Assembly (NCBI GenBank): GCA_017305055.1
Contig: JAFKMZ010000010.1
Coordinates: forward strand, 78,102-142,101
From: Lysobacterales bacterium
Lineage (GTDB): Bacteria; Pseudomonadota; Gammaproteobacteria; Xanthomonadales; Rhodanobacteraceae
Reading direction: 5' to 3'
Length of the DNA: 64,000 bases
This document shows, in pieces, positions 2,607 to 23,499 of the stretch. The position numbers and the translations under genes are program-made. The notes under the pieces were generated by a model. That model searched no databases and was not told where the DNA came from. It worked only from the letters and a program-made list of their open reading frames with translations. How positions within the stretch are numbered: the first letter of the stretch is position 1; each line of letters begins with the position of its first letter.

Positions 2607-2679
2607 TGGTCTGGGCGTCGCTGCAGGCGGAGCAGCGGGCGCGTAGCATGAAGCGGTCCCGACAGCGGAGTGCATCGAC

Positions 2680-3417
2680 ATGCGAGCCCTCAAGTCATTG
2701 ATCGTGCTGATCGTGCTGGTGGTGATCGGACTCGGGATCTGGATCTGGTCGGGGACGTACAACATCGGCGCCGATTCGCCGCACTGGGCAGTCACCTCCA
2801 AGCTCATCAACGTGCTGCGCGAGCGCTCCATCACCACCCGCGCCGCACAGATCCAGGTCCCGAACCTCGATGACCCGGCGCTGGTCAAGCTGGGTGCCGA
2901 GCATTACCAGGAGATGTGCACCGGCTGCCACCTGGCGCCGGGCATGGGCGATTCGGAGCTGCGCGACAGCCTGTATCCCGAGCCGCCGAACCTGACCCAT
3001 TTCGCGCCGCGCCCGGCCGAGGCCTTCTGGATCATCAAGCACGGCATCAAGCTCACCGCGATGCCGGCCTGGGGCAAGACCCACGACGACCAGAAGATCT
3101 GGGCCATGGTGGCGTATCTGCAAAAGCAGCCGCGCATGGGCGTGGACGAATATCGCCAGCTCACCGCCGATGCCGCGGGAGTGGAAGGCCATGGCGCCAT
3201 GGCAGCACCCGCGCCCGCGGCCACGACGGGTGCCATGCCCGGCATGCAGATGTCCACGCCTGACGCGTCGCCGCAGGCGCCAGCGCCCGCCATAGCCCAT
3301 CCGCACGCGGTACCCGGCCTGGCGCGCGCAGCCAGGGATTTCAGCCGTGATTTGCGGCAGACTTGGCGACTCGCAAATCCAGGGAATGTCCATGCCGCCC
3401 GTTCCACGGCACATTGA
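2680..3417 (+). CDS. Membrane-anchored c-type cytochrome
   Basis: Predicted monohaem cytochrome c held in the inner membrane with its haem domain in the periplasm. Seen: one hydrophobic segment at about residues 6-23 directly after a short basic start, then a haem-binding C80-T-G-C83-H84 and a probable axial methionine in TAMPAWG (M128), the order and spacing of class I cytochromes. After the haem domain (about residue 155) the protein continues in an Ala/Pro-rich tail containing an M- and H-rich stretch (PGMQMS near 196, several HP pairs), not usual for the family. The last 40 or so residues look unconserved, and a 7-bp inverted repeat (ATTTGCG/CGCAAAT) lies within their coding sequence. An electron-transfer role is likely; the partner is unknown. 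The stop is only 3 bases before the MFS gene. Confidence 0.85.
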   Translation: MRALKSLIVLIVLVVIGLGIWIWSGTYNIGADSPHWAVTSKLINVLRERSITTRAAQIQVPNLDDPALVKLGAEHYQEMCTGCHLAPGMGDSELRDSLYPEPPNLTHFAPRPAEAFWIIKHGIKLTAMPAWGKTHDDQKIWAMVAYLQKQPRMGVDEYRQLTADAAGVEGHGAMAAPAPAATTGAMPGMQMSTPDASPQAPAPAIAHPHAVPGLARAARDFSRDLRQTWRLANPGNVHAARSTAH

Positions 3418-3420
3418 CGC

Positions 3421-4719
3421 ATGAACGACGCCGCGTCCGTCAGCCCGCCCTATCCTGGTATCGCGCGCGCCTGCTCGGTGCTGCTGATCCTGTTTGCGAC
3501 CGCCGTGCTCGCCTACACGGACCGCCAGGTGCTGAGCCTGCTGGTCGATCCGGTGCGCCAGGACCTTGCCATCAGCGACACGCAGATGAGCCTGCTGCTG
3601 GGCGTGGCGTTCGCCGCGGTCTACGGCGTGGCCGGCATCCCGCTGGGCTTCCTCGCCGACCGCACGTCGCGGCGCAACCTGATCGTCGCCGGGGTGCTGA
3701 TCTGGAGCGTGGGCACCCTGATGTGCGCGGTGGCGCCATCGTTTGCCATGCTGTTCGCCGCCCGCGTGGTGGTCGGCCTCGGCGAGGCGGTGCTGTCGCC
3801 GGCGGCCATCTCGCTGATCAGCGACACCTTCGAACCGAAGCATCGGGGCCTGGCGGTCGGCACCTTCTTCACCGGCATCGCCGTGGGCATCGGCGGCTCG
3901 ATCCTGATTGGCGGCGGCGTGCTCGACCTGGTCCGCGCCGGCCTGTTTGCCGCCACGCCGGTGGCAGATTGGCCGCAGTGGCGGCTGGTGTTCCTGGCCG
4001 TGGGCTTGCCGAGCCTGCTCTGGCCGCTGTTGCTGCTGACCATCCGCGAGCCGGTGCGCCGCCACGACCAGATGTTCACTGCCGCGGAGTCGCCGGCGCT
4101 GGCCACCGACACCCTGCCACGCCTGTTGCGGCGCATGGCACCGGTGTTCATTGCCGTGGCGATCGCCTCGATGGTGGACAACGCGGTCGGCGCCTGGGCG
4201 CCCTCGTTGCTGATCCGGGAGTTTGCCGCGGACCCGGCGCGGGTCGGCGTCCAGCTCGGCCTGCTGCTCATGCTCGGCTACGGTGGCGGCATGCTTGCCG
4301 GCGGTGCGCTGGCCGACCGCTTTGCCCGCTGGCGCGGCCCCAGGGGCAAGACCGAGCTGTGCTGCCTCGCCGTGCTGGCCACGCTGCCGGCGGCGGTGAT
4401 GATCAACAGCCACAGCGCCTCGGGCGTCATGCTCGCGGTACCGGTCTATTTCGCGCTGTCGGCCGTGGTCACCGCCTCGGGCCTGTCCGCCATCCTCGAT
4501 GCCACGCCCAACCGCATGCGCGGCCAGGCCATGGCCATCAGTTTCTTCCTCAACGTCGCGATTGGCGCCGGCTTCGGGCCCACCGCGGTGGCGCTGGCCG
4601 GCGACCATGTGTTTGGTGCCGCCGCCGGGCTCGGCCCGGCCATCAGCTTTACAGTAGTGGTTTCCTATCTGCTGGCTGCCTTGGTGCTGCTGGCCGCGAT
4701 CCGTGCCCGGAGAACCTGA
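3421..4719 (+). CDS. MFS transporter (spinster-like)
   Basis: Predicted 12-helix major facilitator of 432 residues in the inner membrane. Seen: alternating hydrophobic segments over the whole length; an N-terminal TDRQVLSLLVDP signature near residues 37-48 like that of spinster/hexuronate-type carriers; and the loop 2-3 motif GFLADRTSRR (about 75-85), the MFS motif A (G-x-L-A-D-R-x-x-x-R). The ATG follows the cytochrome stop by 3 bases with no strong Shine-Dalgarno sequence, suggesting readthrough translation. Its TGA overlaps the next ATG by one base (TGATG), so this gene, the TIGR04076 gene and the aldo-keto reductase form a coupled operon. The substrate is not evident; proximity to a dehydrogenase-type enzyme suggests a small organic acid, sugar acid or similar compound (inference). 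Confidence 0.88.
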   Translation: MNDAASVSPPYPGIARACSVLLILFATAVLAYTDRQVLSLLVDPVRQDLAISDTQMSLLLGVAFAAVYGVAGIPLGFLADRTSRRNLIVAGVLIWSVGTLMCAVAPSFAMLFAARVVVGLGEAVLSPAAISLISDTFEPKHRGLAVGTFFTGIAVGIGGSILIGGGVLDLVRAGLFAATPVADWPQWRLVFLAVGLPSLLWPLLLLTIREPVRRHDQMFTAAESPALATDTLPRLLRRMAPVFIAVAIASMVDNAVGAWAPSLLIREFAADPARVGVQLGLLLMLGYGGGMLAGGALADRFARWRGPRGKTELCCLAVLATLPAAVMINSHSASGVMLAVPVYFALSAVVTASGLSAILDATPNRMRGQAMAISFFLNVAIGAGFGPTAVALAGDHVFGAAAGLGPAISFTVVVSYLLAALVLLAAIRARRT

Positions 4720-11163: not shown

Positions 11164-12213
11164 TCATGCCGTCGCCGAGCCATCGTGGCTGCCGCGTGAT
11201 TTCACCATGCCGTGCTTGCGCAACAGCGCGCGCAACTGGTGATAGCTCAGGCCCAGCAGCGGTGCGGCTTCGGTCTGGTTATAGCGGGCCTCGGCCAGGG
11301 CGCGCCTGATCAGATCGACTTCCAGGATGGCGACTTGCGCTTTGATGTCGCATGGGAGAGGGATGGATTCTTCCGCCGGTGGCGCGGCGACATCGTCCGC
11401 GACAGCCTCCGCCGGAGGTCGAAAGGCGGAAGCGAAGGGATCGAAGACGATGGTGTCGACCGGCGCGGCGGCTGCGCTGCGATGCACTGAGCGCTCGACG
11501 ACGTTTTTCAGTTCACGCACATTCCCCGGCCAGGCGTAATGGATCAGCGCCATACGGGCGGACCCGGTGAAACCGGCGAAGAGTTTTCGGCCCAATTCGC
11601 GACTGATGTCGACGGCAAAATGCTCGGCCAATTGCATGATGTCTCCCGCGCGCGCGCGCAGTGGAGGCACCGTCAGCACGTCGAAGGCCAGCCGGTCGAG
11701 CAGGTCGGCACGAAACGTTCCGGCCCGCACGGCGGCCGGCAGGTCCCCGCTGGTGGCCCCGACAATGCGCACATCCACGGTCAGCGTCTCGCCGCCACCG
11801 ACGCGCTCGAACTGGCCGTACTCGACCGCACGCAGGATCTTTTCCTGCACGCGCGTCGACACGGTGGCCAGCTCGTCGAGGAACAGCGTGCCGCCGTGCG
11901 CCTGCTCGAAGCGGCCGACGTGGCGGCGGGTGGCACCAGTGAAGGCGCCCGCCTCATGGCCGAACAACTCGGTCTCAAGCAGCGCTTCGGTCAAGGTCGC
12001 GCAATTCAACTTGACCAGCGGGGCCTGCCAGCGCGGCGACAGATAATGCAGTCGTGCCGCAATCAGTTCCTTGCCGGTGCCGCGTTCGCCGATGACCAGC
12101 ACCGGCTTGTTTACGGCGGCGACACGCGAGGCATGTTCCAGCAGATCCAGGAAGGCTGGCGACTCGCCCAACATGGTTGTGGTTGGCGCTTCCGATGACA
12201 GCGTATCCGGCAT
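11164..12213 (-). CDS. pspF: PspF, sigma-54 enhancer-binding activator of the phage-shock operon
   Basis: AAA+ activator of sigma-54 RNA polymerase, 349 residues, without a receiver domain, as expected for PspF. Seen: Walker A GERGTGKE (42-49), the sigma-54 contact loop GAFTGA (89-94), Walker B TLFLDE (109-114), the WPGNVRELKN segment, and a C-terminal Fis-type helix-turn-helix (NQTEAAPLLGLSYHQLRALLRKHG). It is divergent from pspA with the sigma-54 promoter in between. In the known system PspA binds and silences PspF until envelope stress releases it. An A/P-rich linker (about residues 270-300) separates the two domains. Confidence 0.93.
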   Translation of the reverse strand: MPDTLSSEAPTTTMLGESPAFLDLLEHASRVAAVNKPVLVIGERGTGKELIAARLHYLSPRWQAPLVKLNCATLTEALLETELFGHEAGAFTGATRRHVGRFEQAHGGTLFLDELATVSTRVQEKILRAVEYGQFERVGGGETLTVDVRIVGATSGDLPAAVRAGTFRADLLDRLAFDVLTVPPLRARAGDIMQLAEHFAVDISRELGRKLFAGFTGSARMALIHYAWPGNVRELKNVVERSVHRSAAAAPVDTIVFDPFASAFRPPAEAVADDVAAPPAEESIPLPCDIKAQVAILEVDLIRRALAEARYNQTEAAPLLGLSYHQLRALLRKHGMVKSRGSHDGSATA

Positions 12214-12363
12214 GGGGCATCACGATGAGGATCGGGGTCGGGATGGGTGTACTGCTTGGCAAAAGCCATTGTCACTTAATATTCGCCATTTTAACCATAT
12301 ATAAGTCAAACAATCCATCATGAAGCATGACCACTGCCGGACATTCATGCATAACTTTATATT

Positions 12364-12376
12364 TATCAATATGTTG
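12364..12376 (+). promoter_or_regulatory. IHF binding site upstream of pspA
   Basis: TATCAATATGTTG matches the IHF consensus WATCAANNNNTTR at every position and lies in an unusually AT-rich stretch (about 12260-12390). It sits about 17 bases before the sigma-54 -24 element, the position used in the E. coli psp promoter to bend DNA between enhancer and polymerase. Confidence 0.75.
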
Positions 12377-12392
12377 CACATCATCAGCCATT

Positions 12393-12408
12393 TGGCACGA
12401 CCCCTGCT
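12393..12408 (+). promoter_or_regulatory. Sigma-54 promoter of the psp operon
   Basis: TGGCACGACCCCTGCT gives the invariant GG and GC dinucleotides with the required 10 bases between them (consensus TGGCACG-N4-TTGCW). Transcription should begin near 12418-12420, about 30 bases before the pspA ATG. The gene for its activator, pspF, is divergent and adjacent. I could not place the PspF enhancer sites with confidence; 12290-12350 is the likely region. Confidence 0.88.
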
Positions 12409-12448
12409 CTAAAGACCCTGCGGTCCTTCACTTCACGAGGTGAGCAAC

Positions 12449-13129
12449 ATGGGCGTTTTTTCGAGAATGAGCGACATCATCAACTCCAACATCAACGCGA
12501 TGCTGGACAAGGCTGAAGAACCGGAGAAGGTGGTACGGCTGATCATCCAGGAGATGGAGGACACCCTGGTGGAAGTCCGCTCCGCCGCGGCACGCGGAAT
12601 TGCCGACCGCAAGGAACTGGAGCGACGCATCATCTACGCGCAGCGCGAGGCCGACGAGTGGCAGCGTCGGGCCGAACTGGCCATCACCAAGGGACGGGAC
12701 GACCTGGCCAAGGCGGCTCTTGCCGAAAAAAAGCGCATGGACGACGCGCAGGACTTGCTCAAGGAGCAGTCCACGGAGGTCGAACTGGGCCTGGCCAAAC
12801 TCAACGACGACATTGCCGCGCTGCAAGACAAGCTGGCCGATGCCAAGCACCGCCAGAAGGCACTCGAGACCCGTCAGCACACGGCGAGCAACCGCCTGAA
12901 GGCACGCAGCCGGACCCACGACGAGCGGATCAACAATGCCCTGGGCCGGTTCGAGCACTACGAGCGCAAGCTGGAGCACATGGAAGGCAAGGTCGAAGCC
13001 TACGACCTGGGCAAGCAGCACGATCTCGACCGCGAGTTCGCGGACCTGGAAACCAATGACCACGTCGAGGCCGAACTGGCTGCACTGAAAGCACGCATGA
13101 GCCCGGGAAAGCCTGCCAACGCGGAGTAA
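12449..13129 (+). CDS. pspA: Phage shock protein A
   Basis: Membrane-associated ESCRT-III-like coiled-coil protein, 226 residues, that silences PspF at rest and protects the inner membrane under stress. Seen: the family opening MGVFSRMSDIINSNINAML; continuous charged helices over about residues 25-185; and a C-terminal segment with L-E-H-M-E-G-K-V followed by H-D-L-D-R-E-F-A-D-L. The ATG at 12449 was chosen over the in-frame GTG at 12440 because it gives the conserved MG(I/V)FSR start and has an ACGAGGTGAG ribosome site 5-10 bases upstream. First gene of a five-gene operon: pspB follows after 6 bases. The C-terminal tail is echoed in two later genes (see findings). Confidence 0.95.
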   Translation: MGVFSRMSDIINSNINAMLDKAEEPEKVVRLIIQEMEDTLVEVRSAAARGIADRKELERRIIYAQREADEWQRRAELAITKGRDDLAKAALAEKKRMDDAQDLLKEQSTEVELGLAKLNDDIAALQDKLADAKHRQKALETRQHTASNRLKARSRTHDERINNALGRFEHYERKLEHMEGKVEAYDLGKQHDLDREFADLETNDHVEAELAALKARMSPGKPANAE

Positions 13130-13135
13130 GGCGCC

Positions 13136-13357
13136 ATGGACTTTACGGCCATTTTCGCACTCTTCTGCATCTTCGTCGCTCCGCTGTGGCTGATCATGCA
13201 CTACACGACGCAGCGCCGGCGCGCGCAGGGCCTGACGCGCGAGGACGAACAGATGCTTGCTGATTTGTGGCGTATCGCCAACCGGATGGAAGAACGCGTG
13301 AAGACGCTGGAAACCATTCTGGATACACAGACACCCACCTGGAGGGACAAGGCATGA
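13136..13357 (+). CDS. pspB: Phage shock protein B
   Basis: Small inner-membrane protein of 73 residues: one transmembrane helix at about residues 4-22 (FTAIFALFCIFVAPLWLIMHY) followed by a basic patch and an amphipathic coiled-coil (LADLWRIANRMEERVKTLETIL), exactly the PspB layout. With PspC it senses membrane damage and draws PspA away from PspF. Its stop overlaps the next start (ATGA). The C-terminus is short and ends in TPTWRDKA. Confidence 0.93.
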   Translation: MDFTAIFALFCIFVAPLWLIMHYTTQRRRAQGLTREDEQMLADLWRIANRMEERVKTLETILDTQTPTWRDKA

Positions 13358-13626
13358 ACCGTTCGTGGAACGAATACCGGCAACGCCGGCTGTATCGCGA
13401 TCCGGAACACGGTGTGATCCTAGGTGTATGCGCGGGCATCGCCGAACGTTTCGCCTGGCCGGTGTGGCTGACACGGGTCGCAACCCTGGCACTGGCCTGG
13501 TACTTCCCGGTGTCGGTGGCTGTGGCCTATATCGTGGCTGCGCTGATCATGCCCGAGCGCCCGCTGCGCTATTGTGGCGACGGCGATGAACGCAGCTTCT
13601 GGCAATCACGCCGGCACCGGAGCTGA
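13354..13626 (+). CDS. PspC-domain protein (short paralogue)
   Basis: Membrane protein of 90 residues consisting of little more than a PspC domain: RLYRDPEHGVILGVCAGIAE at about 10-29, then two hydrophobic segments (about 33-66). It is clearly a paralogue of the longer PspC immediately downstream, sharing R-x-Y-R-D-P-x-H-G, G-V-C-A-G-x-A and V-A-Y-x-V at matching spacing. It lacks the C-terminal coiled tail of that protein and ends in a basic SRRHRS. The start overlaps the pspB stop by four bases, so translation is coupled. Having two PspC-domain genes side by side differs from the E. coli operon. This copy may be a structural partner or a second sensor (inference). Confidence 0.85.
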   Translation: MNRSWNEYRQRRLYRDPEHGVILGVCAGIAERFAWPVWLTRVATLALAWYFPVSVAVAYIVAALIMPERPLRYCGDGDERSFWQSRRHRS

Positions 13627-13629
13627 GTC

Positions 13630-14022
13630 ATGAGAGACGACGGAACCTGGCGCGCGCAGCGCTTTTACCGCGACCCGCAGCACGGCAAGCTCATGGGCGT
13701 ATGCGCCGGCGTAGCCGATTATTTCGGCTGGAACGTCACCGTCGTCCGCGTCCTGGCGATCATTGCGCTGCTCTGGTTCAACGCACTCACGCTGGTCGCA
13801 TACCTCGTCCTCGGCTTCATGCTTCCAACCAAGCCGGACACGCCCTACACCTGGGATGCCGACGAGGAATACTGGCGCAGCGTCAGGCGCTCGGCGGGCG
13901 GAACCTTCCGCGACGTGCGCCACCGCTTTCGCGAGCTGGACATGAAGTTGCAGCACATGGAAGGCTACGTCACGTCGAGTCGATACGATCTTGATCGCCA
14001 ATTCCGCGATCTGGAACACTAG
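13630..14022 (+). CDS. pspC: Phage shock protein C
   Basis: Inner-membrane stress sensor of 130 residues. Seen: PspC domain RFYRDPQHGKLMGVCAGVAD (about 11-30), two hydrophobic helices (about 36-68), then a cytoplasmic helical tail ending in LQHMEGYVTSSRYDLDRQF plus RDLEH. The tail's M-E-x-Y-V-T-S block is, from memory, shared with E. coli PspC and is thought to contact PspA. Three bases separate it from the shorter PspC-domain gene, and 9 bases from the next small gene. Length is close to that of E. coli PspC (about 119). Confidence 0.9.
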   Translation: MRDDGTWRAQRFYRDPQHGKLMGVCAGVADYFGWNVTVVRVLAIIALLWFNALTLVAYLVLGFMLPTKPDTPYTWDADEEYWRSVRRSAGGTFRDVRHRFRELDMKLQHMEGYVTSSRYDLDRQFRDLEH

Positions 14023-14031
14023 GAATCAACG

Positions 14032-14244
14032 ATGGAACACGGTCAAATCTTTGTCCTGAGCATCATCATCATCGTCTTCGGGGGGCGAATCATCCGGGAC
14101 CACCTGCGCCTGAAGCACATGGAGCCACGCGAAAACCCGCATTACCAGACCCGCATCGATGAGCTGGAGCAACGCGTGCGCACCCTCGAGCGCATCGTCA
14201 CCGACAAGGGCTACGACCTCAAACGGGAATTCGACAAGCTGTGA
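14032..14244 (+). CDS. Small single-pass membrane protein of the psp operon
   Basis: Protein of 70 residues, last gene of the psp operon. One transmembrane helix (about residues 5-19, IFVLSIIIIVFGGRII) is followed by a PspB-like charged helix (HYQTRIDELEQRVRTLERIV) and a tail Y-D-L-K-R-E-F-D-K-L that matches the ends of PspA and PspC from this operon. By layout it looks like a second PspB-type protein; I do not recognise an established name for it. An AGGAA precedes the ATG by 6 bases. Its place and shared tail suggest that it joins the PspBC-PspA complex (inference). About 90 non-coding bases separate it from the convergent GMC gene. Confidence 0.8.
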   Translation: MEHGQIFVLSIIIIVFGGRIIRDHLRLKHMEPRENPHYQTRIDELEQRVRTLERIVTDKGYDLKREFDKL

Positions 14245-14336
14245 ATCAAGGCGGCGCGGAACCTGCGGCATCTCCACGAAGCCAATGACGTGCTGCGGTC
14301 ATCCACGCCGTCACGTTCCGGGAACACCGCCCAGAC

Positions 14337-16022
14337 TCAGGCGACAACCCCTCGCGGCTCGGTGATGCGGTCGGCGAAGCGGTCGGCCAGCGCCGCTATG
14401 GTCAGCGACGGGTTGGTACCTACCGGGCCGGGCATGATCGAGCCGTCCGCGACGTAGAAGCCGGGATAGCCGAAAACCTCGCCGTATTCGTTGACCACGC
14501 CCTCGTCCGCGTTGCGGCCCATCGGCGCGCCGCCCAACCCGTGCACGGTGATGATGCGGCGGCCGAGATGCCAGGTGGGATTGCTCTGGAATGAGCCGCC
14601 CCAGGCCTCCTCGGTGATCGCACGCATGGTGTCGGTCAGCCGGGTGAAGAATGGCGACGACCGCTTGATGCTCCAGTCGCTGGAGAGCAGTCCATCCTCC
14701 AGGCTGAGGTTGCCGTCGGGCACGTCGCGCCCCATGCCCAGCAAGGGAATGGATGAGGCAGACAGGTTGCCCGTACCGAGCAGGTTGGCGATGTCCGCAC
14801 TCAGGTTGGTGGTGGTGTTGATGCCGAATGCCGAAAGCAGGCGGCGCCAGGCCAGGCGCTGGGCGCGCCCGAGCGTCGCGGCGAAGCCGGCGGTCTCCAC
14901 CAGCCAGGACATGAAGGCGGGGTAGCCCGCATCCTCGATGTAGAAGCCGCGGCCACTGCCACCGTCCAGCGCGTCTGGCATGTGCAGCGAGCTGGTGATG
15001 ACCGGGCCATAGTTGCCGTCGAGCGCCCACGGCTGCTTGCCGTTCGCGGTCTGCTTCGAGCAGCGCAAGGCGAAGGTGAGCAGGTCGCCGTTGCTGCAGA
15101 AATGCGAGCCCAGCGTCCGGCTGAGACCCGGGAACTGCGCCCGGTTGCTCAGCAGGAGATAGGTGCTGCCGAACGTGCCTGCCGACAGGATCAGGCGGTT
15201 CGCCGAGATCGTGGTCAGTGGCGCATCCGCGTGTGCCGGCTCCCCGGGCACGTGCTGGCGGTACGAGATCAGATAACCACCGCCGGCGCGCGGCGCGAAG
15301 GTCTTCACTTCGGCCAAGGTGCGCAGGTCGGCCCCGGCGCGCTTGGCCGCCGACAGGTAGTTGTAGTCCAGGGTGTTCTTGCTGCCATAGTTGCAGCCGA
15401 CGTCGCATTCGCCGCACAGCCGGCAGGTGCTGCGGGTACGGTCGTGCAGGTTGCGGTGGGCCTCGACGATCGGCTCGCCCGGCACCGGTTCGGCGCCATC
15501 GTTGGCGAAGGTCACCGCCAGCGGCGGCAGCATCCACTCCAGGCCCAGCTTCTCGCCGGCCATGCGCATCGCCTTGGTCTTCTCGGTCTGGTCGTACGGC
15601 GCCTTGGCGAACGGATAGCGCTGCGCATTCATCATGCGCTCCACCCGGTCGTAGTGCGGATCGAGTTCGGCGCGGGTCACCGGCCAATACTCGTGGCCCG
15701 GCACGCCAGGCTGCTCGCGCACGAACCACTTCTCGTCCTTGCGCAGCAGCACGTTCGCGTAGATCAGCGAGCCGCCGCCCAGGCCGCTGGAGATGAGCGC
15801 GTCGATGTGCTTGAACGACCATACGTCGAACAGGCCGAACATGCCCGCGCCAGGATCCCAGAAGTTCGCGTGCATGGCCTTGGGCGTGCGCGCGAACGAG
15901 CCCGGCGGGTAGGCCTTGCCGCGCTCCAGCAGACATACGCTCTGCCCGGCCTCGGCCAACCGGTACGCCGACACCGAGCCGCCGAATCCCGAGCCCACCA
16001 CTACTGCGTCGAAGTGTTCCAT
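14337..16022 (-). CDS. GMC family oxidoreductase (cholesterol-oxidase-like)
   Basis: FAD-dependent alcohol dehydrogenase/oxidase of 561 residues. Seen: dinucleotide-binding VVVGSGFGGSVSAYRLAEAG (7-26) with the distal acidic residue in LLERG; the GLGGGSLIYANVLLR block (about 81-94) typical of cholesterol oxidase-like GMC proteins; and a C-terminal HGLGGAPMG / VGTNPSLTIAALADR that holds the usual active-site histidine and second FAD contact. Unexpectedly it has C200-x2-C203-x2-C206-x3-C210, the spacing of a [4Fe-4S] ferredoxin site. No signal peptide is obvious. It is the last gene of the six-gene operon starting at 22584 and its start lies inside the 3' end of the metallophosphoesterase gene. 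Substrates of relatives are sterols and long-chain or polycyclic alcohols. Confidence 0.88.
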   Translation of the reverse strand: MEHFDAVVVGSGFGGSVSAYRLAEAGQSVCLLERGKAYPPGSFARTPKAMHANFWDPGAGMFGLFDVWSFKHIDALISSGLGGGSLIYANVLLRKDEKWFVREQPGVPGHEYWPVTRAELDPHYDRVERMMNAQRYPFAKAPYDQTEKTKAMRMAGEKLGLEWMLPPLAVTFANDGAEPVPGEPIVEAHRNLHDRTRSTCRLCGECDVGCNYGSKNTLDYNYLSAAKRAGADLRTLAEVKTFAPRAGGGYLISYRQHVPGEPAHADAPLTTISANRLILSAGTFGSTYLLLSNRAQFPGLSRTLGSHFCSNGDLLTFALRCSKQTANGKQPWALDGNYGPVITSSLHMPDALDGGSGRGFYIEDAGYPAFMSWLVETAGFAATLGRAQRLAWRRLLSAFGINTTTNLSADIANLLGTGNLSASSIPLLGMGRDVPDGNLSLEDGLLSSDWSIKRSSPFFTRLTDTMRAITEEAWGGSFQSNPTWHLGRRIITVHGLGGAPMGRNADEGVVNEYGEVFGYPGFYVADGSIMPGPVGTNPSLTIAALADRFADRITEPRGVVA

Positions 16023-17953
16023 GCCTGCGCACTCGCTTGGGGGTCTCCGGAGGACACGGCGCTGGCAGCGACGGGTGCCGGGACCGTGAAGGGATCCTCG
16101 ATCAGGTGTACCCGCGGCGGCTCGTCATGCCGCGGTCGGAAATAAGGTTTGCGCCGGTTGGCGCGCGGGTCGAAGCGCCAACGCGCCACGCGACGGATGC
16201 CGACTGCGTATACCGCCAGCGTGCCATCCGCCTGCAGATGGATGCGCAGGAAGTTCTTGTAGTGCTCGATGTGCTGTGACGAATAGGCCTCGTTGAAATT
16301 GACCCCCGGCAGCAGCGCCAGGCTGAACAGCAAGGCGCCCAGCGGCCCGCCGATCACGATCATCTCGACGATGTACAGCGCGCCCTGCATCCACAGCCGC
16401 TCGTGACCCGGCGCCTGCAGGCCGAGCAGCGCGCCGATGTGGGCAAACCACCAGGTGAGCGCGAGCACCAGGGCCAGGTGGGCCAGCCCGTGCACGACGC
16501 CGATCCACTTGAGCCAGGCCGGTCGGCCGGGATCCGGATTGCAGAACTGGTACAGGCCAAACACCAGCAGCGCGGCAATCACCATCAGCGCCGGCACCTG
16601 CACCATGATCTCCACCAGCACACCGAATACGTCACCGGCACGGGACAGCGGCTGCTGGCTCAACCAGGCCATCAAGGCATTCATTGGCGTATCCGCGCCG
16701 ACCGTGCTCTGCACCAGCAGCGAGCCCTGGCTGGCGCTCTGCAGCAGCCACCCGCACAGCACGTAGATCAGGCCGAGGGCGAACACGAACCATGGGTTCT
16801 TGAAGCCCAGCAGCAGTGCCCCGGCGCGCAGGCGGCGTGAGGTGGATTGGTCCGGATACACCGGGCCGCGGGCATAGGTCTTGGTGGTCGCGCTGGTGCC
16901 CTGTCCGGGTTCGGTCGAATCCACCTTGGTCAGCTCGATGGCGTCGGGCAACCGGTGCGTGCCGTACAGATAGGCGCCACCGCCGCCGGCCGTGAGCTTG
17001 TGCCGCTGCCCGGTCGAATCTGAGTAGCGCGCGTAATGGTGCAGGTCGCCACTCAGTGAGAGCATCAGTTTCGCCTGCCGCGGGCACAGGATCGTGCGTT
17101 CGAAGAACAGCAGGTTGCGGTTGGCGTTCGACGTATCGCACTCTTCCACCCATGACGGCTGCGCCGTGCACAGGATCACCTGGTCACCGGGCTGCATGTG
17201 TGCGGCCACTTCGGTGAAGTAGTCGATCTGTGGCTGGTCGATGTCCGAGGCCAGCTGGATGTCGATGCCGAGCAGCCACCAGCGCTGCGGCAGCTTCAGC
17301 GCGAAGTAGCTGCGCGTCTGCCGGGTCTTCCAGGCACCGATGGAGCGGCGCTGGCAGAACAGGCGCATGAAGCTGGTGAGACCGTCGTACCAGTCGTGGT
17401 TGCCCGGTATCGAGAACAGGTGCGGCCTGGCCGCTTCCTCGTCAATCCACGGCAGCGCCGCCTCGAACGGGCCGTAGAAGCGGTTTTCGTATTGTGTGCG
17501 GGAGGCGGTCGGATACACCTGGTCGCCGCCAAGGATCAACACCTGGCCACGCTTGGTCGCCGCCAGCAGCTCGCGCTGCCGCGGATGTTCGGGCAACGCC
17601 TCGGCAGGCAGTTGCGCGTGGCCAAACAGCCACGCCACGCTATAGGTGGAATCGAAGCCATCGCCGAGATCGGCGGCAAAATCGATCCACAATTCGGGTG
17701 ATCCGGAATAGTCATGGATCGCCGGTTGGGCACCATGCGCCAGTGCCGCCTGGGTCTCGCGCTGGTCGGCATAGGCGCCGAAGATGCTCGAGAGCAGCGC
17801 GCGGATGCCGGTGCGGATCAGCTGCACCGGATCGAACCACTGCGTCATGCGCTGCGGCGTCCAGGTCAGCGGGACCGGCGCGCTGTCCACAGCCACCGCC
17901 GGCTCTTCCGCGGGCGGGACCGTGGGATCGTAGGGAACTCGCGAGGTAGGCAT
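16001..17953 (-). CDS. Membrane metallophosphoesterase
   Basis: Predicted calcineurin-type phosphoesterase of 650 residues fused to a membrane region. Seen: metal-binding motifs in order, LILGGDQVYP (about 155-164), SIPGNHDWYDG (about 205-215) and LSLSGDLHHYARY (about 300-312); then four or five hydrophobic segments between about residues 375 and 555; then a soluble tail with Ala/Pro-rich end. The order catalytic domain - membrane - tail suggests that the active site faces the cytoplasm or periplasm depending on topology, which I cannot settle. It overlaps the GMC start by 22 bases and follows the patatin gene by 27 bases. The likely job in the operon is to cleave a phosphoester, perhaps on a lipid (inference). 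Confidence 0.85.
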   Translation of the reverse strand: MPTSRVPYDPTVPPAEEPAVAVDSAPVPLTWTPQRMTQWFDPVQLIRTGIRALLSSIFGAYADQRETQAALAHGAQPAIHDYSGSPELWIDFAADLGDGFDSTYSVAWLFGHAQLPAEALPEHPRQRELLAATKRGQVLILGGDQVYPTASRTQYENRFYGPFEAALPWIDEEAARPHLFSIPGNHDWYDGLTSFMRLFCQRRSIGAWKTRQTRSYFALKLPQRWWLLGIDIQLASDIDQPQIDYFTEVAAHMQPGDQVILCTAQPSWVEECDTSNANRNLLFFERTILCPRQAKLMLSLSGDLHHYARYSDSTGQRHKLTAGGGGAYLYGTHRLPDAIELTKVDSTEPGQGTSATTKTYARGPVYPDQSTSRRLRAGALLLGFKNPWFVFALGLIYVLCGWLLQSASQGSLLVQSTVGADTPMNALMAWLSQQPLSRAGDVFGVLVEIMVQVPALMVIAALLVFGLYQFCNPDPGRPAWLKWIGVVHGLAHLALVLALTWWFAHIGALLGLQAPGHERLWMQGALYIVEMIVIGGPLGALLFSLALLPGVNFNEAYSSQHIEHYKNFLRIHLQADGTLAVYAVGIRRVARWRFDPRANRRKPYFRPRHDEPPRVHLIEDPFTVPAPVAASAVSSGDPQASAQAWNTSTQ

Positions 17954-17980
17954 GTGATACCCCCAGGTCTCAGCCCGGCC

Positions 17981-19528
17981 TCATTTGAACGCAGCCGGCG
18001 CGTAGCTCTTCCACAGCTCCCTGGCGAAGAAGCTGCCGAACTGGCCGATCAGTCTGGCCGCCTCCACCGGCGAGCCGGCGTCCACCGCGCGCACGCTCGC
18101 CGCGACCTTGGCGAACGCGATGGCATCGAGCCTGAGCACGCCGGCACCAACCACCTTGCCGGTGGTGTCACTACCCTCGTGCAAGCGGGTGTACAGCGTG
18201 GTGGTGTCGCTCCACAGGTCGAAGCCCGGGTCGTCGTGGACATGCTTGGCCCCGGCCAGGTAATAAGCCTTGCCGGCGTGCTCGAACGGCAGCTCGTACA
18301 CCATCAGCGTGGTGTCTGCGGCATCGGCCGGCGCGAACAGGCGGAACACGCCCGCTCCGGTCGGCATGGCCATGCCCATCGGGGCGAAATCGATGGTGCC
18401 GGCCAGCGTGCCGTTGTGGTTCGGGTCCTGGACGAAGCGGTCCAGGTCCCTCACGGTGACGGTGACGTGGATCGCCAGCGTGGTCCCAGCGCCCTTGCCG
18501 GCGGTGGCACCCGCGTCCGGCTCGGTGGCGCCGAGCGAAAAAGGCCCCTGCATGGTTTCCTGGAACGAAATCCCTGGTACGGCGGGTGTCATCATGAGCG
18601 TCTCCGGGCTGAGGGCATCGCCCTCATCGGTCGTGGTGGCGAGGTAACGCTGGGCGTCCACATAGCCCATCTGGATCAGCGTACGTGCGTCGGTGCGCCC
18701 CAGGTACAGATCCGTGTCCAGCGGCAGCGGATGCGGCGGACGGATGACGTGCACCCGGATGGGAGCCCGCTGTCCGTACGGCGAGTCGCCTGCGGCAATG
18801 CGCGCGTTGAGCTGGGCGATGTCGTCGAACTCGCGGTTGAGGCTGGCATTGGCGGCCATCTCCAGCATCTGCACGTAGATGTGCAAGGCGCCGCCCAGGT
18901 ACTCGGCGCTGTTGCCCAGGCACCAGACCAGCCAGATTTCCTCGGCACCGCGGCGCACCGCCTCCATCAGGTTCGCGTCACGGGCGAACGCCGCATCGAG
19001 ATAGACCGAGCCGTTCCAGCCCACCGGCGGCATGACACCCGGCAGCGACATGCCGGCGACAAACAGCTCCTGATTCAGCTGCTGGTGCGCGACGACCTCG
19101 TTGACCTTGCGTGTGTAGTTGAAGACGTTGAACGTGCCCTGCAGCCACGTCGCGCCGCGCACGGCCTCCAGGTCGATGCCCAGGTGCGGATAGACATAGT
19201 CGATGAAGGCGTCGGCGCTGCCCATGGCCACCTGCCGATCCTGGCGCAGGTAGCTCTCCAGCGGCATCAGCGACAGCGAGCGCCGAAGCTGCAGGCTCGT
19301 CCAGCGCTCGCCCATCTCCGCCGGCGACAGCCCTGACAACAGCATGGCAAGGTTGATTGCCCCGCCCGAGGTGGCATCGATGTGCTGGAAGGCGAGGCCG
19401 GCCTCATGCAGGGCCCGCAACACGCCAGCCTGGTAGGACAGCCGCATGCCGCCGCCGGACAGCACCAGCGAACGGCGGCGAGCGGCGTCGGCTGGGGCGG
19501 CAAACACGGGAGGACTGGGCGTGGTCAC
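17981..19528 (-). CDS. Patatin-like phospholipase with extra C-terminal domain
   Basis: Acyl hydrolase of 515 residues. The N-terminal 300 residues are a patatin domain: oxyanion loop SGGGMRLSYQAG (24-35), nucleophile S54 in D-A-T-S-G-G-A, and the dyad aspartate D180 in YLDAAFA. Two departures are visible: the nucleophile motif is A-x-S-x-G rather than G-x-S-x-G, and the usual D-G-(A/G) reads D-A-A. From about residue 315 a separate beta-rich domain follows (TVTVRDLDRF, GVFRLF, DDPGFDLWSDTTTLY). I recall similar sequence in long GMC oxidoreductase polypeptides of actinobacteria, which would tie it to the GMC gene in this operon. The start ATG overlaps the preceding hydrolase stop (ATGA). Confidence 0.85.
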   Translation of the reverse strand: MTTPSPPVFAAPADAARRRSLVLSGGGMRLSYQAGVLRALHEAGLAFQHIDATSGGAINLAMLLSGLSPAEMGERWTSLQLRRSLSLMPLESYLRQDRQVAMGSADAFIDYVYPHLGIDLEAVRGATWLQGTFNVFNYTRKVNEVVAHQQLNQELFVAGMSLPGVMPPVGWNGSVYLDAAFARDANLMEAVRRGAEEIWLVWCLGNSAEYLGGALHIYVQMLEMAANASLNREFDDIAQLNARIAAGDSPYGQRAPIRVHVIRPPHPLPLDTDLYLGRTDARTLIQMGYVDAQRYLATTTDEGDALSPETLMMTPAVPGISFQETMQGPFSLGATEPDAGATAGKGAGTTLAIHVTVTVRDLDRFVQDPNHNGTLAGTIDFAPMGMAMPTGAGVFRLFAPADAADTTLMVYELPFEHAGKAYYLAGAKHVHDDPGFDLWSDTTTLYTRLHEGSDTTGKVVGAGVLRLDAIAFAKVAASVRAVDAGSPVEAARLIGQFGSFFARELWKSYAPAAFK

Positions 19529-20586
19529 GACTCGGCGGTCTCCTCGAGGTGGCGCAGTATATACGGATAGACGTCCCGATCGGCATGCTCGCCGATGATG
19601 CAGTCGACGTGGCCGTAGCCGGGGATCACCTCGCGCCAGTACAGCGCAGAGCCATTGCGCTCTGCCAGCGCGTCCCGTGACGCGGCCGTGCTCTCGGGCA
19701 CCAGGCAGTCATTGTCGGCACCATGCACGAACAGGATCGGGATCGCCATCAGCTCCAGGCGTGGCAGGTAGCTGTCGGTGCCGTCCTCGCGCACCACGTG
19801 TCCGGCCCGCAGGTTGCGGATAAGGTGCCGGAACGCGCGCAGGTTCGCCTGGCCGAACTGCTCGGGCAGGGTCGCGTGCGTCTCGCCGCCCAGCCTGGCG
19901 TGCCGGTACAGCGGCCCATACATCGCGCTGATGCGCCGGCAGGTGGCGCTGTCGCAGCGCTCGGCCGGTGCGATCGGTTGCAGCCGGGTGCCCAGCGCGA
20001 ACATGCGCTCACGCCAGCCACCGTGGGGCTGCGGCACCGCGTGCAGGGCCTTCACCCCGAGCCAGCCCATGAGCGTCGGCATCCCCATGTACGACTTGAG
20101 ACGGTTCAGGGGCGCGGGGATGGGATGGATCGCCACCTGCGAGCACACCGCGGAGCGCACGCCTTGCAAGCCGGACAGCATGGCCATGCTGAAGGTCTGC
20201 GCACCGATACCATGGGCGACGACCTGGACGCTGCGCGCACCACTGACGGCGAGGACCAGCTGCACCGCGGCTGGGTAGTCGTATTGCGCGATCTCGTCGA
20301 AGCTCGACTGCCGCGACTGTGCATCGAGGTCGATGCTGAGGCGCATGTCCAGCAACCAGACGTCGAAACCGGCGGCGTACAGGTATTCGAGGAGATTGGT
20401 GGGAATCGTATCCAGCGCATACATGCGGCTGGACACGCCGATGCAGTGCACCAGCATGACCGGTCCGCGGCTGCCGCCCCGATGGCGCGTCAGGCGCAGT
20501 TCCACCCCATCCTCGGTGGTGAAGGGGTGGGTTTGCGCGGCATCCACGCGCAGGCGCCGGCGCCCCGGGACGTCCGCGTGCCGCAT
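19525..20586 (-). CDS. Alpha/beta hydrolase-fold protein lacking the nucleophile
   Basis: Alpha/beta hydrolase-like protein of 353 residues. The fold is recognisable from MLVHCIG (strand 3 and oxyanion region), GFDVWLLDMR, the late acid in FVHGADNDC and the histidine in IPGYGHVD. The nucleophile elbow however reads A-H-G-I-G, placing glycine (residue 126) where serine belongs. It is a paralogue of the hydrolase at 21532-22584: both share W-x-x-x-x-R-x-S-I-D-L, P-E-S and Y-G-H-(V/L)-D-x-x-x-G-x-H-A-x-R-D-V. The start at 20586 was preferred because GGGGGAG lies 6 bases upstream; an alternative ATG at 20610 would overlap the previous stop by four bases. The protein may be non-catalytic, or use another residue. 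Confidence 0.85.
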   Translation of the reverse strand: MRHADVPGRRRLRVDAAQTHPFTTEDGVELRLTRHRGGSRGPVMLVHCIGVSSRMYALDTIPTNLLEYLYAAGFDVWLLDMRLSIDLDAQSRQSSFDEIAQYDYPAAVQLVLAVSGARSVQVVAHGIGAQTFSMAMLSGLQGVRSAVCSQVAIHPIPAPLNRLKSYMGMPTLMGWLGVKALHAVPQPHGGWRERMFALGTRLQPIAPAERCDSATCRRISAMYGPLYRHARLGGETHATLPEQFGQANLRAFRHLIRNLRAGHVVREDGTDSYLPRLELMAIPILFVHGADNDCLVPESTAASRDALAERNGSALYWREVIPGYGHVDCIIGEHADRDVYPYILRHLEETAES

Positions 20587-20606
20587 GGTCGTCTCCCCCA
20601 GCACCA

Positions 20607-21518
20607 TCATGCTCCGGCATCGACAGCGGAGCGCGGGGTGGCGTCATGCCCCGCCGCTGCGGAACCAGGCGGCGGCAGCCAGGTTTCCCCGAGGCCCAGA
20701 CCGACCACGCTTTCCAGTCCCTCCGGCACCTGGGCGGGGGGCTCGGCGTAGCTCAGGAACCAGCTTTCCAGGTGGTCATCGAGCACCCCGGAACTCTCCG
20801 GGAAGTAGCCGACGAACAGCGGCCGTTCGCCGATTTCCAGCCGGCGCAGGACCTCGGCGCGCGGGTGCGTGCCGAGCGTGAGCCGCGCCGACGCCTTGCG
20901 CCACAGTCGAAAGCCCATCTTGCCGTGGAAGTAGATGCTGGACTTCATCAGCATGCCGCGGAACGCGCACCAGTTGATCGCGCCCGTGCTGACCGGAAAC
21001 GACTCCCGGCGCGGCCGCCCGATTTCCACTTCCGCCACCATCGCGCCATCGAGGTCATAGCGGCTGCGCACGGACGCGTCCGTGATCTGGAAGTCCAGGT
21101 TGGCCTGGTGCTTGGGCATGCCCCAGATGCCCTTGCCGCCCTTCACCGAGACCTCGGTACTGACCGGCAGGTCGAACACGTACTGGCCGAGGCCGCAGGA
21201 CTTGCGGAACAGCATGGCGCGCAGCAGCGATACCGGCCGTGGCCCGTGCGTGCAGCCGATGCCGAGGCTGTACTCGATGTACTTGCCGATGCTGGTCTGG
21301 CGGTAGTCGATCACCGATACCAACAGGATCGCATGGCGCCCGAGGCGCAGCGGATGCAGCTCGTTGCCCGGCAGCAGTTCGGCCGCGCGCACGGGGTTGA
21401 TGGGAAACGCCGCCATCAAGGCCGGGCTGCCGGCAGATGCCACCGGCAGCACAAACGGGATGCCATCCACCAGGGCATGCCGGCCACCTTGTTGCCTGAG
21501 TCTGCGGGGTATCGCCAT
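20607..21518 (-). CDS. Acetoacetate decarboxylase-like protein
   Basis: Member of the acetoacetate decarboxylase fold family, 303 residues, cytoplasmic. Seen: an N-terminal LMAAFPINPVRAAELLPG block, a central IGKYIEYSLGIGC segment and the P135-K136-H137 site in GGKGIWGMPKHQ. In classical acetoacetate decarboxylase a P-K-K motif supplies the Schiff-base lysine and its pKa-lowering neighbour; here the first lysine is kept and the second is replaced by histidine. The family also includes aldolase-dehydratases and uncharacterised enzymes, so decarboxylation is not assured. The gene lies 13 bases after one hydrolase gene and its stop overlaps the possible upstream start of the other, so it belongs firmly in the six-gene operon. 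Confidence 0.8.
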   Translation of the reverse strand: MAIPRRLRQQGGRHALVDGIPFVLPVASAGSPALMAAFPINPVRAAELLPGNELHPLRLGRHAILLVSVIDYRQTSIGKYIEYSLGIGCTHGPRPVSLLRAMLFRKSCGLGQYVFDLPVSTEVSVKGGKGIWGMPKHQANLDFQITDASVRSRYDLDGAMVAEVEIGRPRRESFPVSTGAINWCAFRGMLMKSSIYFHGKMGFRLWRKASARLTLGTHPRAEVLRRLEIGERPLFVGYFPESSGVLDDHLESWFLSYAEPPAQVPEGLESVVGLGLGETWLPPPGSAAAGHDATPRSAVDAGA

Positions 21519-21531
21519 ATGCGCCTCGCCT

Positions 21532-22584
21532 CTAGTTGGTCCGGTCCAGCTCCTGCAGCATCAGCGGCAGCACGTCGCGATGGGCGTGCTGGCCCATGAA
21601 GATGTCCAGATGGCCGTACTCGGGAATGACATGCAAGCTGTGGTATCCGGGACGCAGGCCGTCGAGCCAGGCAAAACTGCGCTGCTGACTCTCCGGCAGG
21701 AAACAGCGGTTCCTGGCACCGGTGAAGAACGCGAAGCGCGCCGTGGTTTTCGGAGCCTGCGCAACGGGATCGGCAGGCACGTCCTTGGGGCGGTCGTACG
21801 CCACCAGGTGCCCGGCCGCAATGCAATCGGCCATCTGCTGGAAGAACGAGAGCGGCACGTCGGCAAACTCGCCCTGCATCCAGTCATGGGTGGCCGCATT
21901 CAGGTTTTCGTGCCGCCACAGCGTGGGAAAGCCGACCCCGTAGGCGAAGCTCGACCAGCGGCAGACCATGTTGTCGCATTCGTGGTGGGTCAAGCGGATC
22001 ACGCCGTTCAGCGTCTTGGCCAGCAGACCCGGAGGATGCAGCCCCCATTGCGGGTTGACGAACGGGGTGAGCGAGGCCAGCAGCGGCACGCTGAGCTTGC
22101 CCTTGATGCGTGCCGCCAGCGGCACGACGGTGTGGAAAGACACCGCGTTGCTGACGATCGTGTCCACCTGGGGCAGCAGGCCGAGCGCCGCGGACAGACA
22201 GAACGACGTGGAACCCTGGCAATGCACGATGGCCTTGATGCTGGTGGCGCCGGTCTCCCTGGCAACCGTCTCGACCGCCACCGGATGGTCATAGAGTGCA
22301 GCTTGATCGATGGTCCATCGGCACGGAGTCAGGTCGATGCTGGCGCGCCAGTTTTCCATCCATACGTCATAGCCTGCGTCCAGCAGCAGGTCGACGACAG
22401 TGGCCTCGACAGGCGCGCGGAAGATGTTCGCCCGTACCCCCGCGCCATGCACCAGCAGGACCGGTCCCTTGTCCGGAGAGCGCTGGCCACGCACCTGGAC
22501 GACGTTGCACGGCTGCCCGTCGCGCGCCTGGAACGGCACCACCCGATCCACTGCGGCGGCGTGACTCTGGCTGGCGAATGGCAT
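21532..22584 (-). CDS. Alpha/beta hydrolase with a cysteine elbow
   Basis: Alpha/beta hydrolase of 350 residues, first gene of the six-gene operon. Seen: oxyanion strand VLLVHGAG (42-49), GYDVWMENWRASIDL (71-85), the nucleophile elbow V120-H-C122-Q-G124, and the late histidine in IPEYGHLD. Serine of the usual G-x-S-x-G is replaced by cysteine, as in polyhydroxyalkanoate synthases, which use G-x-C-x-G; whether a thioester-type chemistry applies here is inference. The family of this pair (with the gene at 19525) is related to the hydrolase domains that I recall fused to cholesterol-oxidase-like proteins elsewhere. A sigma-70 promoter lies about 64 bases upstream. No signal peptide. Confidence 0.87.
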   Translation of the reverse strand: MPFASQSHAAAVDRVVPFQARDGQPCNVVQVRGQRSPDKGPVLLVHGAGVRANIFRAPVEATVVDLLLDAGYDVWMENWRASIDLTPCRWTIDQAALYDHPVAVETVARETGATSIKAIVHCQGSTSFCLSAALGLLPQVDTIVSNAVSFHTVVPLAARIKGKLSVPLLASLTPFVNPQWGLHPPGLLAKTLNGVIRLTHHECDNMVCRWSSFAYGVGFPTLWRHENLNAATHDWMQGEFADVPLSFFQQMADCIAAGHLVAYDRPKDVPADPVAQAPKTTARFAFFTGARNRCFLPESQQRSFAWLDGLRPGYHSLHVIPEYGHLDIFMGQHAHRDVLPLMLQELDRTN

Positions 22585-22647
22585 GCGGCCCCTCCGTGAG
22601 TCAAAGCTGGCGACGGCTGGACGGCTTTACAGCCATTCCACGGCGTA

Positions 22648-22676
22648 CGGATACACTGTTCCCCACACCCCGTCAA
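22648..22676 (-). promoter_or_regulatory. Sigma-70 promoter of the six-gene operon
   Basis: Read on the minus strand: -35 TTGACG (22671-22676), 17-base spacer, -10 TATCCG (22648-22653). It is the only good promoter in the gap between the phosphorylase gene and the first hydrolase gene, and points into the operon. Confidence 0.6.
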
Positions 22677-22740
22677 ATCCTTTTTCGGAGACCGTGCGGC
22701 GCGAAACGCCCGGCCCCCGCAGCGGCTTGCCAATGCGGCT

Positions 22741-23499
22741 TCAGACCGCCCGCAGCGCCACCAGGATGGCCGGCACATGAGCCGTGACAGCCTCCAGATG
22801 GGCGAAGATGTCGGCGGCGCTGATCTCCGCCTGATCGCCGCAGCCGGCGGCGAAATTGGCCACCAGGGCCAGGCACGCGTAGTCGACCGCCAACTCCCGC
22901 GCGAGCACGGCCTCGGGCATCCCGGTCATCCCCACCAGGTCACAGCCATCGCGCCGCAGGCGGGCGATTTCCGCGCGCGTCTCCAGGCTCGGCCCCTGGG
23001 TGACGCCATAGCACCCACCGTCCACGACCGCCACCCCGGCCTCGGCCGCAGCCGCCAGCAACTGCCGACGCAAAGATGCCGCATAGGGCTCGGTGAAATC
23101 GACATGCTCCACCTTGGCACCGTCGACGTCGTGGAAGCTGCCCTCGCGGCCCCAGGTGTAGTCGATGAGCTGGTCTGGCACCACGATGCTGCGCGGTCCC
23201 AGGTCGGCGCGTATCCCACCCACCGCATTGACCGCGACCAGGCGCCGGACACCAAGCTGGTGCAGGGCCCAGACATTGGCGCGGTAATTGACCCGATGCG
23301 GCGCCAGCCGATGATCCTCGCCGTGGCGGGCCAGGAAGGCCATGCGCTGCGCGCCCAGCATGCCAATCACGACCTCCCCGGAGGGCTCGCCAAACGGCGT
23401 CTGCACACGATGGCGCTCGGCGTCCTGCAGGCCGGCAAGCGCATACAGTCCGCTGCCGCCGATGACCCCAAGCGCGACCGGAGATGTGGTTTCTGTCAT
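22741..23499 (-). CDS. S-methyl-5'-thioinosine phosphorylase
   Basis: Trimeric nucleoside phosphorylase of 252 residues, from the MTAP/PNP family. It releases hypoxanthine and methylthioribose-1-phosphate from methylthioinosine, the route used for polyamine by-product salvage in Pseudomonas and relatives that first deaminate methylthioadenosine. Seen: phosphate loop VIGGSGLY (12-19), RHG (58-60), the NAVGGI segment (91-96), and MTGMPEA (191-197). The purine-binding region reads V-A-N215-F-A-A-G; the aspartate pair that recognises adenine in MTAP (D-Y-D) is absent and an asparagine, as in 6-oxopurine enzymes, is present. The start at 23499 is the first methionine that gives the family's N-terminus; longer in-frame starts add unconserved sequence. 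Confidence 0.85.
   Translation of the reverse strand: MTETTSPVALGVIGGSGLYALAGLQDAERHRVQTPFGEPSGEVVIGMLGAQRMAFLARHGEDHRLAPHRVNYRANVWALHQLGVRRLVAVNAVGGIRADLGPRSIVVPDQLIDYTWGREGSFHDVDGAKVEHVDFTEPYAASLRRQLLAAAAEAGVAVVDGGCYGVTQGPSLETRAEIARLRRDGCDLVGMTGMPEAVLARELAVDYACLALVANFAAGCGDQAEISAADIFAHLEAVTAHVPAILVALRAV

Follow-up and report, generated by a model that had tools for sequence, protein, structure and literature searches.

A rare six-gene module in a Lysobacterales bacterium, conserved across phyla and probably directed at a lipid-like substrate

What could be the common task of six adjacent genes that encode a GMC oxidoreductase, a patatin, a phosphoesterase, two alpha/beta hydrolases and a protein of the acetoacetate-decarboxylase family? 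The question is raised by a minus-strand operon of Lysobacterales bacterium (assembly GCA_017305055.1, contig JAFKMZ010000010.1), located in a stretch of 64,000 nucleotides that was analysed as a whole and is called the window here. The alpha/beta hydrolases are designated ABH1 and ABH2, the acetoacetate-decarboxylase family protein ADC, the calcineurin-like phosphoesterase MPE, the oxidoreductase GMC, and the N- and C-terminal parts of the patatin protein PATn and PATc. In the order of transcription, the genes encode ABH1 (350 residues), ADC (303), ABH2 (361), the patatin (515), MPE (650) and GMC (561). L-numbers denote fetched loci and G-numbers sampled genomes.

Judged by comparison of sequences, the six genes are a conserved but rare module, scattered across phyla. 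The module is probably linked to the membrane and active inside the cell, where a lipid-like substrate with a phosphate would be oxidised and either deacylated or transacylated. In the form that we favour, at about even odds (a probability of roughly 0.5), it has spread horizontally and works both in the cytoplasm and at the inner membrane; its lipid-like substrate would have a hydroxyl that can be oxidised, at least one acyl group and a phosphoester. This reading starts from what was observed directly: the genes cluster in a conserved way, their domains are swapped and fused, catalytic motifs are present, and the other sampled members of the genus have no close ADC. The set is drawn from well-known superfamilies; it brings out a domain that has no Pfam name (PATc), and it leads to the prediction of an iron-sulphur GMC dehydrogenase and of Cys-His-Asn alpha/beta hydrolases. 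Searches of open-licence papers in PubMed Central found no description of the set of six families.

The gene set recurs far from its host. MPE drew at least 572 loci, of which the best 80 were taken; in the fetched stretch, 28 of these 80 have at least one other module family, and 12 have all of ABH1, ADC, PATn, PATc, MPE and GMC. To avoid the bias of drawing with MPE, ADC alone was used as bait in further genome samples. Of 398 Pseudomonadota genomes, 4 matched, one of them the own genome; of 296 genomes from the phylum to which the Adhaeribacter genome belongs, 4 matched, one of them the seed. Matches were also found in 2 of 246 from the phylum of the L071 genome, and in 2 of 249 from the phylum of the L003 genome, namely the seed and G877, which was left out of the independent count because its coordinates are identical to those of G158. 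As G158 is of the same phylum as the window, the L003 genome seems to be placed in that phylum as well, although the family under which it is named, Polarisedimenticolaceae, counts among the Acidobacteriota. With the own and seed genomes excluded, eight independent places remained: G158, G396 and G404 from the first sample, G602, G659 and G746 from the second, and G1032 and G1250 from the third. ABH1 and the patatin are in the cluster at seven of the eight places, GMC is in the fetched locus at seven, and a phosphoesterase of some kind is present at seven. The families that the original prediction brought together thus recur together in other groups of bacteria, which means that the grouping is not due to chance. 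Strains of Cyclobacterium, Adhaeribacter, Echinicola and Cesiribacter have the whole set, and the substrate could be sought in these named strains.

Closer relatives of the host gave a different picture. A search made with ADC alone, and not with the other five genes, covered 35 further sampled genomes of the genus and another 24 of the order, and it found no close relative in them; one genus member, G002, has a 25% match. The gene that adjoins the operon upstream was located in ten chosen genus members, and in all ten the 1.5 kb on each side of it contain no gene of the operon. As far as ADC is concerned, the neighbourhood that had been expected in related genomes is missing from the other sampled members of the genus. 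Taken with its presence in other phyla, this absence is better read as a sign of horizontal transfer than as a refutation of the grouping. Two plasmids carry the module. The set lies on one strand in form A on a plasmid of Arthrobacter sp. StoSoilB13 (L136), where the deposited sequence splits MPE into two frames (11670-13722), and an Azospirillum plasmid carries form B. In midpoint-rooted trees, the window GMC groups with rows from the Bacteroidota and Actinomycetota samples and from two actinomycete plasmids (8 rows, 100/100), and ABH2 groups with the hydrolases of fusion proteins (9 rows, 100/99); the position of ABH1 was not resolved. Composition gives no sign of recent foreign DNA: the third-position GC of the six genes (0.84-0.90) is near that of six other genes in the window (0.78-0.87). 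The transfer was therefore not recent, or the donor was rich in GC, and the case for transfer is made from distribution and trees only.

Such a patchy distribution, the two plasmids and the lack of a close ADC in the sampled genus would also suit a catabolic island for an exogenous hydrophobic ester, such as waxes, sterol esters or plant polyester monomers. The hydrolases would free an alcohol and an acid, GMC would oxidise the alcohol, and ADC would decarboxylate a beta-keto acid. The lipase-like character of ABH1 agrees with this. According to PMC7409140, a GMC gene and a patatin gene of Roseithermus with close locus tags (007025 and 007050), which are putative module members, are up 1.88- and 2.70-fold on xylan. 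Against it stands a hydropathy scan, which is crude and is not a signal-peptide predictor: no sign of secretion was seen in the six proteins. No protein exceeded the threshold in its first 50 residues, and transmembrane-like segments were found in MPE alone, so that the module probably acts inside the cell. The catabolic explanation is possible, though we consider it doubtful.

The fused versions whose existence had been raised by the original prediction were found, including GMC joined to the beta domain and a hydrolase. PATc, the beta-rich C-terminal part of the window patatin, is common to most of them. It is fused to the patatin in the window and in L011, L073, L111-L113 and L128, to ADC in L003 and L009, and to GMC in many Bacteroidota loci and in L134 and L136. 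GMC-PATc-ABH2 fusions occur in L061, L139 and L149-L153; in L071, a PATc-ABH2 fusion stands beside a separate GMC in a different frame. L007 has a fusion of GMC with ABH1. In L150, two genes (2515-4439) follow the GMC-PATc-ABH2 fusion; we take them to be an LpxH/PlcP-like phosphoesterase and a glycosyltransferase-like gene. A profile search of the 398 Pseudomonadota genomes found PATc at nine places in eight genomes, four in patatin-sized frames (G000, G158, G396 and G404) and five in GMC-PATc-ABH2 frames of 1151-1183 residues; none was seen outside the module system in these genomes. Among 28 members, PATc has no credible match in Pfam or NCBIfam (best E values of 0.036 and 0.026, each from a single member). 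The AlphaFold2 model (residues 285-515) has a mean pLDDT of 90.7. A divergent ADC-like barrel was considered and rejected, as the profile comparison was negative (probability 0.5).

The family of GMC is clear from its C-terminal part (59.9 bits against the Pfam cut-off of 24.6), and its closest solved relatives by sequence are the bacterial cholesterol oxidases of the GMC type. His494 and Asn537 align with the catalytic pair of cholesterol oxidase, which we take to be His447 and Asn485 in its numbering. Cholesterol oxidase has a conserved substrate domain with Glu361; residues 318-492 of GMC gave no alignment with this enzyme. The score against the NCBIfam model of cholesterol oxidase is 196.1 bits, far below the cut-off of 850. 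In addition, GMC has a cluster of four cysteines (CxxCxxCxxxC); opposite Cys203, Cys206 and Cys210, the residues of cholesterol oxidase (1b8s) are Ala, Val and Asn. Cys200, Cys206 and Cys210 are invariant in all twelve chosen rows, and Cys203 varies (Val in L134, Gly in L137 and Leu in L005). According to PMC6719666, Cys212, Cys218 and Cys222 of the FAD glucose dehydrogenase of Burkholderia hold a 3Fe-4S cluster. The three invariant cysteines of GMC are spaced in the same way (C-x5-C-x3-C) and lie about as far from the N-terminus, a likeness established by spacing and not by direct alignment. This spacing suggests that GMC is probably an iron-sulphur dehydrogenase rather than a cholesterol oxidase, and the latter name was rejected on the score and the cysteines. 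The catalytic subunit of the B. cepacia enzyme is alike in family and in the His/Asn pair; GMC differs from it by the fourth cysteine, Cys203, in most rows, and is expected to take another substrate. A hitchhiker (gamma) subunit or a cytochrome c subunit of the B. cepacia type was not found among the six genes, to which this search was confined.

The resemblance to cholesterol oxidase could be taken as a sign of sterol or hopanoid metabolism. Both the N- and C-terminal parts of GMC share this resemblance, and the ABH1 profile matches gastric and lysosomal lipases of the cholesteryl-ester-hydrolase type. The low score and the unaligned region of GMC speak against it. Moreover, of 15 module genomes only one has a full-length match to squalene-hopene cyclase, and three more have weak or partial matches; the genome of the window has none. 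This marker bears on endogenous and not on exogenous sterol, and an endogenous sterol or hopanoid is thus not a general substrate. We consider sterol or hopanoid metabolism very improbable. The pathway for a lipid or for a steroid-type ester or alcohol, as originally proposed, is retained in its lipid-like part, whereas the emphasis on steroids and cholesterol oxidase is given up.

The hydrolases have an unusual active site. Of 29 chosen rows, 28 have Cys where the nucleophile is expected, and all 28 rows that reach the region (L071 ends early) have His and, at the expected acid position, Asn; these residues were assigned by position, without a structure. The exception is ABH2 of the window, in which the nucleophile Cys is replaced by Gly134, so that it does not qualify as an active Cys-hydrolase; a one-base assembly error may account for this. 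Both hydrolases are below the cut-off of Abhydrolase_1 (24.9 and 20.0 against 25.8 bits). The ABH1 profile is nearest to the gastric and lysosomal acid lipases (best E value of 8e-11), in which the residue aligned with Cys122 is Ser. Polyhydroxyalkanoate (PHA) synthases have a Cys nucleophile in a Cys-Asp-His triad. ABH1 shares the nucleophile but has Asn where the acid is expected, and its scores against the two models (13.5 and 13.8 bits) are far from the cut-offs of 622.65 and 365.3, with weak matches in all twelve ABH1 members at E <= 0.1. PHA metabolism was rejected as the role of the module: PhaC_N proper was found in 2 of 15 module genomes, with a weak partial match in the genome of the window.

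The patatin (77.4 against 27.7 bits for PF01734) has kept the dyad of Ser54 and Asp178, and ADC is above the cut-off of PF06314 (57.0 against 29.8 bits). Lys136 in the PKH motif is presumably the catalytic lysine that forms the Schiff base. The ADC of the suberin paper PMC5158114, which is named there beside acyl-CoA dehydrogenases, was judged unrelated to the module.

The identity of MPE is based on fold and motifs, as its score for Metallophos (18.7 bits) is under the cut-off of 21.5. The catalytic fold of the model matches purple acid phosphatase, GpdQ and SMPDL3 (E values of 3.2e-8 to 2.4e-4). MPE shares the GNHD and GDxH motifs with these enzymes and differs from them in that DLGDGFDST replaces the usual DxH, and in its additional transmembrane and C-terminal beta parts. 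Other loci have other phosphoesterases in this slot. A different calcineurin-like protein follows GMC in L111 and L113 (PF00149, E values of 3.7e-4 and 4.2e-3), a third type lies behind the patatin in L128, and both types have the DxH, GNHD and GHTH motifs. L135 has a PhoD-like protein (PF09423, E value of 1.8e-9). BLAST found no significant similarity between the types of the window, L111/L113, L128 and L135. Refilling of the slot by dissimilar phosphoesterases suggests that the module cannot do without cleavage of a phosphoester. In L135 (386-2191; G1250), the PhoD-like gene comes after an in-frame joining of the N-terminal part of GMC to the C-terminal part of ADC, which looks like a deletion that fused two cluster genes. 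As a separate observation, MPE of the window type is frequent in actinomycete loci (L014, L017, L022 and others) that have no other module gene nearby. The GMC of a Leptospira plasmid (L138, 5914-7638) groups with those of L111 and L113, and no other module family is present in the fetched stretch.

A lipid-like substrate fits best with an acid-lipase-like hydrolase, a patatin and a phosphoesterase that has a membrane part. The steps could be as follows. MPE, anchored in the membrane, would remove a phosphate or a phospho-headgroup, and the patatin would cleave an acyl ester by means of Ser54 and Asp178. The Cys nucleophile of ABH1 might cleave or transfer an acyl group through a thioester intermediate. 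GMC, with its predicted iron-sulphur cluster, would dehydrogenate the freed alcohol, and the electrons would pass from FAD to the cluster and then to a carrier, and not mainly to oxygen. ADC might decarboxylate the resulting keto compound or form a Schiff base with it. PATc, which has been passed between GMC, the patatin and ADC, may hold a hydrophobic intermediate or dock the enzymes together. ABH2, with Gly in place of Cys, might be a non-catalytic partner, or it might be decaying.

A bolder version can be proposed tentatively, with less confidence than the reading above. The genes would belong to an undescribed lipid pathway or complex built around PATc as a new beta domain, an exchangeable part that holds the substrate or docks GMC, the patatin and ADC. 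The Cys-His-Asn hydrolases would be thioester-forming acyltransferases, one of them reduced here to a non-catalytic subunit, and the iron-sulphur GMC would link lipid oxidation to the respiratory chain. The kit would travel between phyla, with its phosphoesterase, GMC and hydrolase parts replaced by analogues.

A further explanation, which we find unlikely, is that the module makes or remodels an unusual membrane lipid. Here the phosphoesterase would make a dephosphorylated acceptor, the Cys hydrolases would be acyltransferases, and GMC and ADC would tailor the head or the chain. The Cys nucleophile and the weak matches of ABH1 to PHA-synthase models agree with such a role, as do the membrane phosphoesterase, the Anthrone_oxy and DUF4345 small proteins in several copies of the module (described below), and the two genes behind the L150 fusion, if they are what we take them to be. 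On the other hand, no acyl carrier protein, acyl-CoA ligase or glycosyltransferase is found among the six genes of the window, and a proper PHA synthase is rare in the module genomes. PlcP-Agt is a system of lipid remodelling under phosphate starvation, in which a phosphoesterase acts with lipid enzymes. The module likewise pairs a phosphoesterase with lipid enzymes, which is an analogy only, and differs in having no glycosyltransferase among its six genes and no Pho box at the operon. Control by phosphate starvation was rejected on the latter ground.

Several observations weigh against the favoured reading of an intracellular module for a lipid-like, phosphate-bearing substrate. A Foldseek search with PATc found no PDB match at E <= 0.001; the top of the list (MppR, FABP, lipocalins and Diels-Alderases) had low TM-scores, and the lipid-holding role is therefore a guess. 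No solved ADC structure gave an alignment with the module ADC on which the catalytic lysine could be placed. The first 50 residues of ADC are just under the hydropathy threshold (1.59 against 1.6). With 4.02 matches to the Pho-box pattern expected, the window has two, and both are away from the operon. As for the phosphoesterase slot, the proteins of L111 and L113 (21.4 and 18.0 bits) are below the same Pfam cut-off as MPE, that of L128 has no Pfam match, so that its assignment depends on motifs, and no MPE of the window type was found in four of the five form-B loci (L149-L153). G158 has neither GMC nor a phosphoesterase in its form-A locus, with a GMC-PATc-ABH2 fusion elsewhere in its genome, and G1250 has only the GMC-ADC chimera. 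MPE is alone in 52 of the 80 loci drawn with it, mostly from actinomycetes and some of them cut off by contig ends, and ADC was found in 5 of 27 chosen MPE genomes.

Two other origins were tried and rejected. Anti-phage defence gave one chance-level PADLOC match (GMC, E value of 0.0012) and none for the other five genes; the PHROGs gave no match that would suggest a phage origin, apart from a weak esterase match to ABH2.

The open reading frames of all six genes are at the positions originally predicted (Table 1).

Table 1. Positions of the module genes and of their main features in the window
Feature	Position	Strand	Description
ABH1	21532..22584	(-)	Alpha/beta hydrolase of 350 aa that resembles acid lipases and PHA synthases; nucleophile Cys122, with His325 and Asn292 (assigned by position)
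Codon of ABH1 Cys122	22219..22221	(-)	Nucleophile within the HCQGS elbow
ADC	20607..21518	(-)	Acetoacetate-decarboxylase family, 303 aa; WGMPKH (Lys136) invariant in 18 of 18 rows
ABH2	19525..20610	(-)	Alpha/beta hydrolase of 361 aa, in one tree group with the hydrolase domain of PATc-ABH2 fusions; Gly at the nucleophile position
ABH2 codon 134	20209..20211	(-)	GGT (Gly); the 8 relatives in its tree group all have Cys
PAT	17981..19528	(-)	Patatin, residues 21-190, Ser54/Asp178, joined to PATc; GTG start
PATc	17984..18574	(-)	Beta-rich domain common to GMC and ADC fusions elsewhere; modelled as residues 285-515
MPE	16001..17953	(-)	650 aa; purple-acid-phosphatase/GpdQ-like catalytic part and transmembrane part (about residues 386-551)
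GMC	14337..16022	(-)	FAD-dependent oxidoreductase of the GMC family, 561 aa; catalytic positions taken by His494/Asn537
Predicted GMC iron-sulphur motif	15393..15425	(-)	Cys200, Cys203, Cys206, Cys210
Region upstream of ABH1	22585..22740	(-)	Between the neighbour gene and ABH1; no convincing sigma-70 site

Three predicted distances were confirmed: ABH1 and ADC are 13 bases apart, the patatin and MPE are 27 bases apart, and MPE overlaps GMC by 22 bases. The ATGA at 20607-20610, which is the overlap of ADC and ABH2, was confirmed as well; later ATG codons are possible alternative starts of ABH2. The overlap of ABH2 and the patatin at 19525-19528, given as a second ATGA, reads GTGA because the patatin starts with GTG. 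The single sigma-70 promoter placed at 22648-22676 was not supported either: the scan of 13900-23000 found no site (shuffled sequence gave a mean of 0.9 sites), and TTGACG/TATCCG has 8 of 12 consensus bases. The neighbour upstream of ABH1 is presumably a purine-nucleoside-phosphorylase-like gene.

Small proteins are encoded between ADC and the patatin in several loci. Among the loci covered by the family scan (L003, L010, L128, L129 and L134), Anthrone_oxy is over the cut-off in L003 and L010 and under it in L128, L129 and L134, and DUF4345 is over the cut-off in L010 and L129. Open reading frames of similar size are at this position in L008, L021, L130 and L136. The small protein of L003 sits just before the patatin. 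In the window, the place between ADC and the patatin is taken by ABH2.

The downstream neighbour of the module, in convergent orientation, is a psp-type group of stress genes (11164-14244), which we take to be PspF-, PspA- and PspC-like. In three genus members (G001, G008 and G032), the psp genes are followed by another gene.

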